Assembly: GCA_022828125.1 (NCBI GenBank)
Contig: JAJEJD010000020.1
Coordinates: 372,001 to 436,000 of the forward strand
Origin: a bacterium
GTDB lineage: Bacteria; UBA8248
Direction: 5' to 3'
DNA: 64,000 bases
The first letter of the stretch is position 1; each line of letters starts with the position of its first letter. Under the pieces are notes generated by a model, which did no database searches, was not told the origin of the DNA, and saw nothing but the letters and a program-made list of their open reading frames with translations. The translations under genes were made by a program, and so were the position numbers. Positions 50,207 to 56,266 of this stretch are shown here, piece after piece.

Positions 50207-50557
50207 CTAACGGTGGGAGAGTATGTTGATGAGCTTCCCGCAGGGGTCGCGGGCGTAGAACCGACGAACGCCCCAGGGCTCGTTCGTCAGAGAATATACG
50301 ATCTCGAATCCGGCGGCGCGCATCCGGCGATACGCCATATCGACATCGTCAACTTCGATGGAAAGGTCCGGGACCTCCGTTCCAGATCCCCCCTCGGTCG
50401 CGAAGCCGATCTGGACAGGGGCGTCCACGCCGGAAGAGAGGGTCATGTACCACCCGAGGTCCATCGCGATCTCAAGGCCCAAAACATCGCAATAGAAGCG
50501 CCGGGCGTCCTCGGTTCGATCCACCGCGATGTTTGCGACAACACGTTTGACCTCCAT
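50207..50557 (-). CDS. VOC/glyoxalase-fold protein
   Basis: The protein is 116 residues from ATG 50557, with GGGAG upstream. It has two beta-alpha-beta-beta-beta modules: R-V-V-A-N-I-A-V-D, A-R-R-F-Y-C-D-V-L-G-L, D-L-S-I-E-V-D-D-V-D-M-A and A-R-D-P-C-G-K-L-I-N. These fit a single-domain vicinal-oxygen-chelate protein (glyoxalase, antibiotic-binding or dioxygenase relatives). Specific function unknown. Confidence 0.75.
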   Translation of the reverse strand: MEVKRVVANIAVDRTEDARRFYCDVLGLEIAMDLGWYMTLSSGVDAPVQIGFATEGGSGTEVPDLSIEVDDVDMAYRRMRAAGFEIVYSLTNEPWGVRRFYARDPCGKLINILSHR

Positions 50558-50679
50558 TTTGCTCTCCCACACAACACGTTATCGCAAATCCAGTGCGCAA
50601 GGGCCGTCAAGCCGCGCCACGACAGCGCAATCGACTCCGCGGCTTCGCGCTCCCCCGGTCGGCGGCTCTGGGCTTCAGA

Positions 50680-51057
50680 CTAATACCCCTCGTCGATCAC
50701 CTCCTTGAGCTGCGTGCAGCCGGCCACGAGCGCCGTCATCCCGCAGGGGGGCAGCATGCACTCGAGCGCCTCGGTCGCCTCCTCGACGGTCGCGCCGAGT
50801 TGCAGCGCCTTCTTCAGGTGGTTCTTGATGCCCTCGGTATCGGAGGGGTCGCGCGAGGCGCTCGCCACGGCGATGAAGAGCTCCTTGTATTTCTCGTGAA
50901 AGGGGCCCTGTTTCTTCATGATGTGGTTCTTCAAGTTCTCGTAGTTCTCCAGAAGCTCCGGGTCCACCTCGCACAGGAGTTCGTACGCCGGATAGATGAA
51001 TCCCCGCGCCGCCTTCATCTCCTCGTACAAGGCCCTGCCCCGCTCGCTCATCGCCAT
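50680..51057 (-). CDS. Carboxymuconolactone decarboxylase-like protein
   Basis: The 125-residue protein matches the AhpD-like helical fold (E-L-F-I-A-V-A-S-A-S-R, G-I-K-N-H-L-K-K-A-L-Q-L-G-A-T). The CxxC peroxidase pair of AhpD is not present. Instead C-M-L-P-P-C gives a C-x4-C spacing near residue 95, plus another Cys in V-A-G-C. A redox role is therefore uncertain, and a structural homologue without peroxidase activity is possible. It lies with other oxidoreductase genes on the minus strand. Confidence 0.7.
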   Translation of the reverse strand: MAMSERGRALYEEMKAARGFIYPAYELLCEVDPELLENYENLKNHIMKKQGPFHEKYKELFIAVASASRDPSDTEGIKNHLKKALQLGATVEEATEALECMLPPCGMTALVAGCTQLKEVIDEGY

Positions 51058-51110
51058 CGTGAATCCTCCTTATGCAGACACTCGCTCATACCGGCGAGCG
51101 TTATCCGCCC

Positions 51111-51881
51111 CTATGGATAGACTTCCTTCTCCAGCACGGAAATCTCGTGCCCGGGCAGGATGTATTCCTCCTTCGTGGCGCGCTCGATGCACTTGTGGAT
51201 GGAATCCATCGCGTCGCGCATGCTCGACATCTGGCCGGCGGGCACGCGGCGCTCGAGGCCTTCGTTGATCTGGATGACGTCGGCGGCGATGACGTAGGTG
51301 CCCACGCGCGTCTCGACGGCGACCGAGCAGTGTCCCGGCGTATGGCCCGGCGTGTGGAAATAGGTGACGCCCGGCACGATCTCGGTATTGTCCTTCCAGA
51401 TGGGCTCGAAGATGATGCCCTGTTGCGCGATCACCGGCCAGCGGGTGTTGGGGTGGATCGGCGCGTCGTAGGGCTTCGCCTGCAGCGCCACCGGGCACAT
51501 GGAGTATTGAAGCTCCTCCGCCCAGACATACTTGACCGCGTTGGTGAAGAGGTCGCAGTTCTGGGAGTGATCCCAATGCAAATGCGTGAGGATGAGGATG
51601 TCCACTTCCTCAGGCTTCCAGCCGGCGCCTTCGAGTTGTTCGCGCACGCCCTGGCCGGGTTCCCTGCTCGCGGGCCAGGGGGCGCCGCCGCGCTCGGGGT
51701 CGAGGAAACTGGTGTCGACCACGACCTTCACGTCGTTTCCGTCGTGGTCCTTCGCCCCCTCGATCATGTAGATGAACGAGGGAATTTCGAGTTTCGTCCC
51801 GAAATTCGTCCAATACACCATGTTGGAGTAATCCGTATGGATGGTGCCGCAGTTCAGCGGACGGATGGTGAGGTCTGGCAT
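51111..51881 (-). CDS. Metallo-beta-lactamase-fold lactonase-like hydrolase
   Basis: The protein is 256 residues from ATG 51881. The dinuclear-metal motif is H-L-H-W-D-H, with further ligands in H-T-P-G-H-T-P-G-H, A-A-D-V and L-P-G-H-E. The overall arrangement matches AHL-lactonase (AttM/AiiA)-type proteins, though many in this group act on other esters or lactones. Substrate cannot be assigned. It is 53 bases from the CMD-like gene on the same strand. Confidence 0.8.
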   Translation of the reverse strand: MPDLTIRPLNCGTIHTDYSNMVYWTNFGTKLEIPSFIYMIEGAKDHDGNDVKVVVDTSFLDPERGGAPWPASREPGQGVREQLEGAGWKPEEVDILILTHLHWDHSQNCDLFTNAVKYVWAEELQYSMCPVALQAKPYDAPIHPNTRWPVIAQQGIIFEPIWKDNTEIVPGVTYFHTPGHTPGHCSVAVETRVGTYVIAADVIQINEGLERRVPAGQMSSMRDAMDSIHKCIERATKEEYILPGHEISVLEKEVYP

Positions 51882-52001
51882 GGAAACGGTTCCTTTCTGC
51901 TTTGTATCGCGGCCTGGGTGGGCCGCAAATGAACGATGGCAATTATTTTGCCTGATAATCACCGGCAGTGCGTCAAAAGGCCGGCGAACGGATGTATGTC
52001 G

Positions 52002-52601
52002 TCAAGCCCGCGCGGTTCGGGAGAAGCGCACCACCTCCAGCAACTCATCGGGGCCTTCGGGTTCTATGGCGTCCAGGCCGAGCGCGATGTTCAGCCGGTT
52101 GCTCATGTTCCGGTACGACACCGAGCCGATGATGTCGAGCACGTTCTCATCCGAGAAGCCCGCCTCGCGCAACTCGTCCAGGTCCGCCTCGCTCATGGCG
52201 TAGTGGTCGAACGTGAGCTTTTCGGCGAAGGCGAGCATCGCCTTGTCCGCATCGTCGAGAGCCGGGGAATTGTCCCTGTCCGTCACCACGGTGGCCACGT
52301 CGGCCAGCGTTACGTCGTCGCCGCTTTCAGCACGGAAAGCCTGGCCATGGTTCATCGTTCAGCCGTAGCACCCGCCGATGGTGGCGACGTAGTAGGAGAT
52401 CAGCTCCTCGCGCCTCTGGCCCAGCGTCGAATTGCCGCCGTGAACGGCCATGTTCATCGTCTGGCGTCCGTTCAGGACCTGGGGCCTGCGCGCCATCGTG
52501 AGCAGCAGCTTGGGCACCGCGCCTCTTTTTTCCCGGATGCCCTCGAGAATCCCGCGCGCGGGTTCTTCGGCGTCATTCAGCCGTAATGGGGATATCCACA
52601 T
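52002..52601 (-). CDS. AhpD-like peroxidase-related selenoprotein (in-frame TGA = Sec81)
   Basis: Two frames, 52601-52362 and 52355-52002, are in the same phase and joined by a single TGA at 52361-52359. Read through, they give 199 residues with an unbroken AhpD-like domain. The active site becomes E66-x11-C78-x2-U81-x3-H85, exactly the E-x11-C-x2-C-x3-H spacing of AhpD with the second Cys replaced by Sec. A perfect 6-bp hairpin begins 18 bases after the TGA, where bacterial SECIS elements sit. A start with GGAGGAG upstream lies 24 bases after the preceding LLM gene. The alternative is a simple Cys-to-stop mutation. Selenocysteine machinery is not visible in the window. Confidence 0.78.
52323..52340 (-). 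promoter_or_regulatory. SECIS-like hairpin downstream of the in-frame TGA
   Basis: On the minus strand GCTTTC (52340-52335) pairs perfectly with GAAAGC (52328-52323) around the 6-base loop CGTGCT. The loop starts 24 bases after the TGA codon and has G at its second position, within the spacing and loop rules described for bacterial SECIS elements. It lies inside the coding sequence, as is normal in bacteria. Confidence 0.6.
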
Positions 52602-52625
52602 TCTCCGTTCTCCTCCGCTCCGATA

Positions 52626-53681
52626 CTAGTCGTTTGATTGCGCCGCGCGCTCTTCTGCGAACGCGGGCATCACCTCTTTCGCGAACCGCTCTATGGATTC
52701 AATCGCCTCGTCCTGGGAGATGCCGCGCAGCACGAAGATCATGATGTGATTCACCCGGAACTCCGCCTGGAGCCGCTTGAGATCGGCGATCACCTTCTCC
52801 GGCGGACCGATGACGCCGCCGCCCTCGATGACCTGGCGGATGTCGACGTCGTAGCTCCAGTTGCGCTTGAGGGCCTCTTTCTCCTCGAGCGGCATCTCGA
52901 TGGAATTCACCGCGCTGCGGTAGGAGAGATACCAGGATTCGGAGGGTTCGATTTGCCGCCAGGCGTGCTCGGGGTCGTCGCAAACATGGACATGGTGCGC
53001 CATGAGGGAGGGATAATCGCTCGGGTCGCCGCCCCGGTTGCGCACGGTCTCCTGGAAGAGCGCCATCTTCTCGAGATACACGTCCGGCCCCTTGAAGGTG
53101 CCCGACGCCATGATGTTGTACCCCCTCTGCCCGGCGAAGACGTAGGTTTCGGGACTCGTGCCGGCCAGCCAGATAGGGGGGCGCGGCTTCTGGATGGGTT
53201 TGGGGAAAATCTCCGCGTCGACGCAGCTGTAGTGCTTGCCGTGATAGGTGAGGCATTCCCCCTCCAGCAGGCGGGTCATCACCTCGAGACCCTCCTGCAT
53301 CTTCTCCCTGCTCTCGGACGGGGAGATGTTGAAGCCCTGGAATTCCTTGGGCTGGGAGCCACGTCCGACGCCCAACTCCAGGCGGCCGCCGCTCAGAACG
53401 TCGACCAGGGCGGCCTGTTCGGCCAGACGCACCGGGTTGTGGAAGGGCATGATGCAGATGGCGGTGCCGATCCGTATCTTCTTCGTTCTTTGCGCGATGG
53501 CGAGCGCGACCATGAGGGCGTCGGGGCACATGCCCACGCGGGAGAAGTGGTGCTCGGCCAGGAACACGGCCTCGTAGCCGAGTTCGTCGGCCACCTCGCA
53601 TTGTTCGATCAGCATATCGAACTCGCGCTTGTAGGATTCTCCCTCCTGACACGCAGGAATATAGAAAAGCGAGAATTTCAT
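52626..53681 (-). CDS. LLM-class flavin-dependent oxidoreductase
   Basis: The 351-residue protein has the bacterial-luciferase TIM-barrel pattern: A-V-F-L-A-E-H-H-F-S-R, R-I-G-T-A-I-C-I-M-P-F-H-N-P, S-G-G-R-L-E-L-G-V-G-R-G, P-P-I-W-L-A-G-T-S. It uses reduced FMN or F420; the cofactor cannot be told. It is a paralogue of the gene at 55196-56266. It lies immediately upstream of the probable selenoprotein, suggesting a shared operon. Confidence 0.85.
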   Translation of the reverse strand: MKFSLFYIPACQEGESYKREFDMLIEQCEVADELGYEAVFLAEHHFSRVGMCPDALMVALAIAQRTKKIRIGTAICIMPFHNPVRLAEQAALVDVLSGGRLELGVGRGSQPKEFQGFNISPSESREKMQEGLEVMTRLLEGECLTYHGKHYSCVDAEIFPKPIQKPRPPIWLAGTSPETYVFAGQRGYNIMASGTFKGPDVYLEKMALFQETVRNRGGDPSDYPSLMAHHVHVCDDPEHAWRQIEPSESWYLSYRSAVNSIEMPLEEKEALKRNWSYDVDIRQVIEGGGVIGPPEKVIADLKRLQAEFRVNHIMIFVLRGISQDEAIESIERFAKEVMPAFAEERAAQSND

Positions 53682-53728
53682 CTTTCAGGTCTCCATCCCG
53701 TACATGATAATCGTGCGCGCCGGGCGGC

Positions 53729-54127
53729 TTACGCGCCCATCGTGAACACCTTGTCCGCCCGGATGCGGTAGATGACGCGCACCTGCCCTTCCTGGCGGTT
53801 CGGATAGCTGTCCACGCCCAGGTACTTGTTCGCCAGGGCGTCGATGTGCTCCTCCGCCCCGTTTTCGGTGACCTCCACCACCGTGCCCTGAATCCCCACC
53901 CACCTGTAGGCGTTTTCCGGGTCGACGATGGCGATGGACACCTTGGGCCTTGCGCGCATGTTCAAGTCCTTCAGACGACCCTTGGCCGAATTGACCTCGA
54001 TGATGTCGCCGTTGGTCCCGAACCACACGGGTGAGACCTGCGGTGAGCCGTCCTTGTTCTGGGTGCCCAGATAAAGAAGGGCCTTGGTGTCGAGAATGCC
54101 GGCATGGGATTCGGGTATCAGCGCCAT
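53729..54127 (-). CDS. PNPOx-fold (pyridoxamine oxidase-like) flavin/F420 protein
   Basis: The protein is 132 residues from ATG 54127, with GAGGAA upstream. The split-barrel pattern includes L-G-T-Q-N-K-D-G-S-P-Q-V-S-P-V-W-F and N-S-A-K-G-R-L-K-D-L-N. This subgroup is often F420-dependent, reducing or oxidising unknown substrates. It sits between two LLM-class genes, which fits a flavin/F420-based pathway. Function not assignable further. Confidence 0.78.
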   Translation of the reverse strand: MALIPESHAGILDTKALLYLGTQNKDGSPQVSPVWFGTNGDIIEVNSAKGRLKDLNMRARPKVSIAIVDPENAYRWVGIQGTVVEVTENGAEEHIDALANKYLGVDSYPNRQEGQVRVIYRIRADKVFTMGA

Positions 54128-54175
54128 TTTGGGTTCCTCATATGAAAAAGACGGTCGATTCCGCACCGGATACGG

Positions 54176-55156
54176 TCATACGCACCTGGGCAAAACCTCT
54201 TCTGTGAACATTCTGAGAGATTCGTCGAAATCCTGATTCGGGGGGTCGATCATGATGCTCTTGACGCCGTAGGACTCGATCTCCTGGATGCGGTCGACGC
54301 ACTCCTCGGGCGTTCCCGTGATGGTGAAGCGATCCAGGATGTAGTCGGTGATGAGGGGGACGTGCTTGGGGTCGCGCCAGTTGCTCACGTCGAAGTTGTC
54401 CAGAAGGTGCTTGATTTCGGGCTTGTACGGGTCGGGCACGGAGTCGAGCGTCATGCGGAAGTTATGGTGCGCGCGGTTCGCCACCCGCGCCCGCACTTTT
54501 TCCCGCGCGCGTACGCTGTCTGTATCCACCGAGACGACCGCGCCGAAAATGATGTCCATCTCGCCGAGTGAGGGGTCGCGGTTCGCCATCCCCTCGTTCA
54601 GGTATTTCATCACCCAGTCCACCGTCTCCTTGTAGACGCCCGAACCCACGATGACGCCTTCCGCGACTTCAGCCGACATGGCGAGCGTCCTGGGGCCTTC
54701 GGCAGAGGTGTAGATGGGGATTTCCCGCTCACACCACATGTTCACGTTCACGCCTTCTGCGTATTCCACCGTCTCGCCGCGCGTGAAGGCGCGAACCGCC
54801 GCGATGGACTCGCGCATCCGCGCGAGTCGGGCCATCTTCTTGCCCAGCGTGTAGACGGGCGTATCGCCCGAGCCGATGCCGAAGATCACGCGGCCGCCCG
54901 AGAGCTCGTCGAGCGTGGCGATGGCGCTCGCCGCGACGCTGTCGTCGTGCAGCACCGGATTCGTCACGCCAGGGCCGATTTTCACGTGCGAGGTGTTCTC
55001 TATCGCCAGGGCGAGCGCGATGTTGTGATCCCGGCAGGTGAGGTGGCTCTCCGCTATCCACACCTGCTCGAAACCGTTGTCCTCGGCGTATTTCGAGCGT
55101 TCCGCCACCACCCGGATGTCATCCGGCACCAGATGCAAACTAAAGCTCATACCCAC
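54176..55156 (-). CDS. LLM-class (F420-dependent-like) oxidoreductase
   Basis: The 326-residue protein may start at M-S-F-S (55150). It has V-W-I-A-E-S-H-L-T-C-R, L-A-L-A-I-E-N-T-S-H-V-K-I-G-P-G-V and F-G-I-G-S-G-D-T-P-V. This subgroup resembles methylene-tetrahydromethanopterin reductase-like enzymes, which use F420. Substrate unknown. Same strand as and close to the PNPOx-like gene. Confidence 0.83.
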   Translation of the reverse strand: MGMSFSLHLVPDDIRVVAERSKYAEDNGFEQVWIAESHLTCRDHNIALALAIENTSHVKIGPGVTNPVLHDDSVAASAIATLDELSGGRVIFGIGSGDTPVYTLGKKMARLARMRESIAAVRAFTRGETVEYAEGVNVNMWCEREIPIYTSAEGPRTLAMSAEVAEGVIVGSGVYKETVDWVMKYLNEGMANRDPSLGEMDIIFGAVVSVDTDSVRAREKVRARVANRAHHNFRMTLDSVPDPYKPEIKHLLDNFDVSNWRDPKHVPLITDYILDRFTITGTPEECVDRIQEIESYGVKSIMIDPPNQDFDESLRMFTEEVLPRCV

Positions 55157-55195
55157 GAAAAAGCGCCTCCTGAATTTTCAGAGAAAAAGATGTCA

Positions 55196-56266
55196 TCAAG
55201 CGTTGTTTCCATTCGAGCCGACGGGCGCGGCCGCGTTCACCAGCGGCATGACGTCATTGGCGAAGCTCTCTATCGAGCGCATCACCGAAGCGTGGTCCGG
55301 CCCGCGCCAGGGCGCGAGGATCACGTGATTGACCCCGTACTCATCCCGCAGCCTGCAAATGTCTTCCGCCACGGCCCCCGGATCGGCGATGATGCCGCCG
55401 CCCCTGACGATCTCGGCTACGTCCAGCTCATAGCTCCAGTTACGTTTCAGGTGCTTCGCCTCCTCCTCGGGCATTTCGACCTCGTTCATCTTCGCCCGGT
55501 AGCGCAGGTACTCCCCCTCGCCCTCCACCGTGAGCCTGAAGTATTCATCCGCATCTTCCGCATCGCATACGTGGATGTGGTGAACCAGGGGCCTCTCGAT
55601 TCCGGCGGGGTCGCCGCCCGATTTTCTGATGGCGTCTTCGTAAAGCCCGAACTTTTGCTTGTAGACTTCCGGACCCGTGAAGCCGGCCGAGGCCATCACC
55701 TTGAAGCCGTTCTCCCCCGCGTAGGTGTAGGTCTCGGGGCTCGTGCCCGCCAGCCAGATGGGGGGCCTGGGCTTTTGCAGGGGCTTGGGGAAGATTTCGA
55801 CGTCCGCGCACCGATGGTACCGGCCCTCAAACGTCACCTTACGCCCTTCCAGAAGGCGGGAGAGAATGTGAAGCCCCTCTTTTAGGCGCTCGCGGCTTTC
55901 CGACGGCTTGGCGCCGAACCCCTGAAATTCCTTGGGCTGGGAGCCGCGCCCGATACCCAGTTCGAGCCTGCCGCCGCTCAAGAGATCGACCATGGCCGCC
56001 TGTTCGGCCAGGCGGATGGGATCGTGGAACGACATGATGGAAATGGCCGTGCCTAAGTGTATTTTTTTCGTCTTTTGCGCGACTGCGGCGCAGATGAGGA
56101 GGGGATCGGGGATCATCCCGACGCGGGAGAAGTGATGCTCGGCGTACCAGACGCACGAATAGCCCAACTCGTCCGCCAGCACGCTCTCCGTGATCATGTC
56201 CTCATGGACTTGGGTCTCGGTCATGTCTTCGGGACGATACAGGATGTAAAACAGCGAAAAATCCAT
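55196..56266 (-). CDS. LLM-class flavin-dependent oxidoreductase
   Basis: The 356-residue protein is closely similar to that at 52626: Y-A-E-H-H-F-S-R-V-G-M-I-P-D, I-H-L-G-T-A-I-S-I-M-S-F-H-D-P-I-R, S-G-G-R-L-E-L-G-I-G-R-G-S-Q-P-K-E. The two are probably ancient paralogues with related substrates. It is the first gene of the minus-strand run that ends with the VOC gene. Confidence 0.85.
   Translation of the reverse strand: MDFSLFYILYRPEDMTETQVHEDMITESVLADELGYSCVWYAEHHFSRVGMIPDPLLICAAVAQKTKKIHLGTAISIMSFHDPIRLAEQAAMVDLLSGGRLELGIGRGSQPKEFQGFGAKPSESRERLKEGLHILSRLLEGRKVTFEGRYHRCADVEIFPKPLQKPRPPIWLAGTSPETYTYAGENGFKVMASAGFTGPEVYKQKFGLYEDAIRKSGGDPAGIERPLVHHIHVCDAEDADEYFRLTVEGEGEYLRYRAKMNEVEMPEEEAKHLKRNWSYELDVAEIVRGGGIIADPGAVAEDICRLRDEYGVNHVILAPWRGPDHASVMRSIESFANDVMPLVNAAAPVGSNGNNA

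Follow-up and report, generated by a model that had tools for sequence, protein, structure and literature searches.

Does the minus-strand interval 52601–52002 of the window, by which we mean the whole 64,000-nucleotide stretch of UBA8248-lineage DNA analyzed here, encode two separate fragments or a single selenoprotein? Translation table 11 yields two ORFs, 52601–52359 (80 aa) and 52355–52002 (117 aa), as an earlier note on this DNA had anticipated for ordinary annotation. When the TGA at 52361–52359 is read as selenocysteine (Sec), the frame continues for 199 residues to a TGA stop at 52004–52002, and the read-through product carries the motif E66-x11-C78-x2-U81-x3-H85. The coordinates, the frame and the AhpD spacing with Sec as the second Cys, all claimed in that note, proved exact on this direct reading of the frame. 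Based on the open frame, the conservation of the TGA, the existence of Cys homologues, selection acting both before and after the codon, the complete Sec machinery and family membership, we hold that the window gene is very probably one intact AhpD-like selenoprotein with Sec at its active site, and we infer Sec insertion at UGA 52361–52359 from the same sequence evidence. No other convincing redox-motif TGA or plausible Sec gene was found in the window. The gene would thus illustrate what automatic annotation loses in genomes of the UBA8248 lineage.

Predicted fold, chemistry and gene neighborhood

The translated product scores 111.8 bits against the NCBIfam model TIGR01926, 'peroxidase-related enzyme' (cut-off 81.8), and lies barely over the cut-off for the Pfam CMD family. 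Its nearest solved chains by sequence are the AhpD-like antioxidant proteins 6k40 and 3c1l, and a fold search with an AlphaFold2 model returned 3c1l and 6k40 as the top PDB matches. The model (pLDDT 72.7), which is confident across most of residues 61–200 and of low confidence before residue 55, predicts an AhpD-like helical fold. Aligned with homologues of other lineages, the protein shows four invariant positions: E66 (52404–52406), C78 (52368–52370), C or U at position 81 (52359–52361) and H85 (52347–52349), all encoded on the minus strand. Glu66 and His85 are equivalent to Glu118 and His137 of AhpD, relay residues in that enzyme, for which a Glu/His proton relay has been proposed (PMC3141380).

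By analogy, we propose the following model for the synthesis and action of the protein. SelB would deliver Sec-tRNA(Sec) at UGA 52361–52359, aided by a hairpin just 3' of the codon, and the ribosome would insert Sec81 and continue to the UGA stop at 52004–52002. Activated via the Glu66/His85 proton relay, Sec81 would then attack a hydroperoxide or a similar oxidized substrate, Cys78 would resolve it through a selenenylsulfide, and a dithiol donor would reduce the latter. The protein is most likely a thiol/selenol oxidoreductase with peroxidase chemistry.

What do the neighboring genes say about its role? The selenoprotein gene sits in a cluster of tightly spaced genes, all on the minus strand, extending from 50207 to 56266. 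Directly upstream lies a luciferase-like monooxygenase (52626–53681; PF00296), preceded by a PNPOx-like protein (53729–54166; PF01243) and two further luciferase-like monooxygenases (54176–55156 and 55196–56266), whose synteny holds within the genus. Directly downstream lie a metallo-beta-lactamase-fold hydrolase (51111–51962; PF00753) and a small CMD protein (50680–51057; PF02627), and the cluster ends with a VOC/glyoxalase-like protein (50207–50572; PF00903). The order from the PNPOx-like gene to the CMD gene is conserved in all six relatives, including the one from another genus, which suggests that these genes may share a pathway.

Such a conserved setting would also fit a selenoprotein with a task other than peroxide reduction, either as a thiol/disulfide adaptor or as an enzyme acting on the products of the neighboring monooxygenases, such as a Bmp8-like reductive dehalogenase. 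The window protein weakly resembles the debrominase Bmp8 (sequence search, E = 0.017; Foldseek, 6.1e-4), and AhpD of Mycobacterium tuberculosis also serves as an adaptor for AhpC (PMC3141380). We regard this alternative as possible but the less likely of the two, given that E66, C78, U81 and H85 fit the AhpD peroxidase relay and that the top matches in both sequence and fold are AhpD-like antioxidant proteins.

The TGA codon in relatives and the selenocysteine machinery

Six other genomes carry an orthologue; five belong to the genus of the window gene, the sixth (77% identity) to a different one, and every orthologue has TGA at the Sec81 codon. In a search of 386 genomes, the readable homologues from outside the phylum are divided between CxxU (L111, L117 and L118) and CxxC with TGC or TGT at the Sec81 codon (L113, L114, L116 and L119); L060, L073 and L074, counted as TGA by the search but with an unresolved motif, were excluded from the CxxU tally. 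The alignment with Cys homologues and relatives that the earlier note had suggested as a check therefore came out in its favor, with TGA throughout the close relatives and Cys in distant homologues. Homologues on plasmids all fall below 60% identity, with CxxC in two of the four that were read (L106 and L108), and a search for relatives on viral contigs found none.

Amino-acid change is low both 5' and 3' of the TGA, and purifying selection maintains both parts of the protein. Within the genome itself, paralogues have TGA in place of the second CxxC Cys in ten cases and of both Cys in an eleventh. Its recurrence at this codon in all six relatives, the TGAs at CxxC positions in eleven paralogues and its standing as the single convincing redox-motif TGA of the window put the in-frame TGA far above chance expectation.

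Can this bacterium make selenocysteine? The earlier note had implied as much, and had named the absence of all sel genes as the finding that would overturn its reading; that outcome did not occur. The genome encodes SelA (576 bits; cut-off 267.9), SelB (384.9 bits; cut-off 242.25) and SelD (341 bits; cut-off 125), together with a tRNA-Sec with anticodon UCA (selC) on the same contig (C30) as selA and selB, which lie close together with one ORF in between. The SelD frame (G000:C30:4116-5078, minus strand; L110) itself contains an in-frame TGA in its N-terminal motif, read as GGUGSK, the site at which SelD proteins have Sec or Cys. This frame adjoins an MsrA-like frame. A second SelD-like match (C31:175581), adjacent to the paralogue with two in-frame TGAs, was rejected as a link: it scores 75 bits, below the cut-off, and its neighbor reads like a thiamine gene. 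Of 18 genomes from the phylum, 15 yielded selB; G009, among the three that did not, is 79% complete and nevertheless retains the two-TGA gene.

These data bear on three readings in which the TGA does not encode Sec. In the first, translation would stop at the TGA and restart at ATG 52355, yielding N- and C-terminal fragments that may assemble. An ATG is indeed found two codons 3' of the TGA in the genus of the window gene, but the orthologue at 77% identity has Leu (CTT) at this site, making a restart there unlikely, and none of the other Sec homologues has a start codon in that position. The catalytic pair would moreover be split between the two fragments, and the genome has the machinery for Sec, so we consider two proteins very improbable. 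Still less credible is a sequencing error or a recent nonsense mutation, with the TGA as an artefact or the gene as a pseudogene: the sequence basis consists of assemblies, but the same TGA recurs in seven separate assembled genomes of two genera (our own included), purifying selection persists 3' of the codon, and TGA occupies the second CxxC position in ten paralogues and both positions in one more. General reassignment of TGA, or non-specific readthrough with, for example, Trp, is equally implausible, since nothing was found in its support beyond the open frame of one gene, whereas the window gene and several of its paralogues terminate at TGA, Trp2 is encoded by TGG, the internal TGAs sit on redox-motif Cys positions and a tRNA-Sec exists.

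Candidate SECIS hairpins

If Sec81 is inserted at the UGA, a SECIS element would be expected to lie downstream of it, and two mutually exclusive candidates overlap there. Hairpin A (52323–52340, minus strand) has a perfect 6-bp stem, GCUUUC/GAAAGC, that begins 18 bases 3' of the TGA, closes the loop CGUGCU and is lengthened by GCC/GGC across a 2-nt bulge. Bacterial SECIS elements are described as having a loop of 3–9 nt with a G in the first two positions, a stem of 4–16 bp and a spacing of 16–37 nt (PMC13188914); with its loop 24 nt after the UGA, hairpin A falls within this geometry. Position and stem of the hairpin described in the earlier note thus hold. As evidence it is weaker than the note implied: a hairpin that fits SECIS geometry and is just as stable follows 21% of ordinary codons, and the folding energy gives no signal for the window gene against either dinucleotide shuffles (z = +0.33) or synonymous shuffles (z = −0.39). 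By itself, hairpin A is not statistically exceptional in the window gene.

Over 21 Sec sequences, hairpin A accumulates 15 both-side changes, a number reached in none of 500 shuffles, with the sequences being related and their kinship uncorrected. L118, a homologue from outside the phylum, has a 7-bp stem of different sequence in the same columns. Against hairpin A, pairing holds in only 57% of cells. The group folding signal against synonymous shuffles is weak (combined z −1.65). Hairpin B (52331–52349, minus strand; CAUGG/CCGUG) is the alternative, with pairing of CAYGG and CCGUG in 91% of cells; no covariation was found in it, most of its columns being fixed by conserved amino acids, and its loop and spacing fall outside the consensus in the window gene. 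Six of seven paralogues use GGT for the Gly that coincides with the apical loop, and GGT makes up 5% of the Gly codons in nine window genes (binomial 1e-7, a value overstated by the relatedness of the paralogues); this bias lends further support to a SECIS. Taken together, a SECIS is probably present downstream of the TGA, with hairpins A and B as candidate forms.

The paralogue family and its relation to known systems

How widely has this lineage made use of such genes? The genome was searched for CMD proteins and with the window protein as query, and the matches were read: 12 CMD/AhpD-like genes carry TGA within a CxxU or UxxU motif, with 13 Sec codons among them. Besides the window gene, these are C31:177213 (UxxU), C29:85770, C16:17892, C15:51985, C22:353726, C31:24065, C30:31869, C15:134785, C31:220964, C5:117712 and C19:195864. 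The usual His after the motif is absent from C5:117712 and C19:195864, the least certain of the 12. The CxxU paralogues comprise loci L022, L023, L024, L031, L036, L037, L038, L039, L043 and L044, with L043 and L044 being without the His that usually follows CxxU. One of them, L031 (in the region G000:C22:353726-353953), is a two-domain CMD protein with CxxU in its first half and a degenerate, Cys-less motif in its second.

The UxxU gene (G000:C31:177213-177806, plus strand; L062, also L020), with two in-frame TGAs, is the closest paralogue of the window gene in the genome (48%) and scores 87.7 bits, over the TIGR01926 cut-off. Its orthologues keep both TGAs in 11 of 11 cases, in genera g1 (seven genomes) and g6 (four genomes); three of the four genes from g6 (L056, L057 and L058, from genomes G015–G017) have Gln in place of the catalytic Glu. 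It seems likely that the lineage amplified AhpD-like selenoproteins and that one conserved branch exchanged both active-site Cys for Sec, which would give the family a new Sec position. An AhpD-like UxxU protein was not found in open-access selenoprotein reviews or metagenome papers, which we treat as a lead and not as proof of novelty.

The UxxU paralogue and the expansion of the family are of greater interest than the window gene itself. If our reading is correct, the AhpD-like UxxU center would be able to form a diselenide and would give a small soluble enzyme an active site of the rare diselenide type, and a comparison of UxxU, CxxU and CxxC relatives would make the effect of the second Sec directly testable. 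UxxU motifs are known from a Prx-like thiol:disulfide oxidoreductase, a putative mercuric reductase-type metal-binding protein and an FmdB-type protein (PMC13188914). These share the two-Sec spacing of the paralogue, but they belong to unrelated families and are not AhpD-like.

Among Cys proteins, 6k40 from D. radiodurans and 3c1l from M. loti share the E/C/C/H residues of the window protein at about 30–34% identity in the fold alignment, with Cys where the window protein would have Sec81. AhpD of M. tuberculosis shares the spacing of Glu118, Cys130, Cys133 and His137 (PMC3141380), whereas its fifth relay residue, His132, is Gly80 in the window protein, so that four of five match; its chain is distantly similar and does not belong to TIGR01926.

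The closest known system is the AhpD-like selenoprotein family itself. Reports of AhpD-like selenoproteins come from metagenomes of the Sargasso Sea and of GOS (PMC1088965, PMC2398784), and AhpD-like TIGR01926/COG2128 is listed as a CxxU selenoprotein (PMC13188914, PMC9312934), in agreement with the earlier note's statement that such proteins already form a known class. Judged by its sequence, the window gene is a new member of this family, and a well-supported one, found together with the full Sec machinery in the same genome, in a family first known from metagenome reads. With the listed family (TIGR01926/COG2128 YciW) it shares the curated model, the CxxU position and a candidate bacterial-type hairpin 3' of the codon, and no defining difference sets it apart; its closest paralogue in the same genome, in contrast, has UxxU, a form unlisted there.
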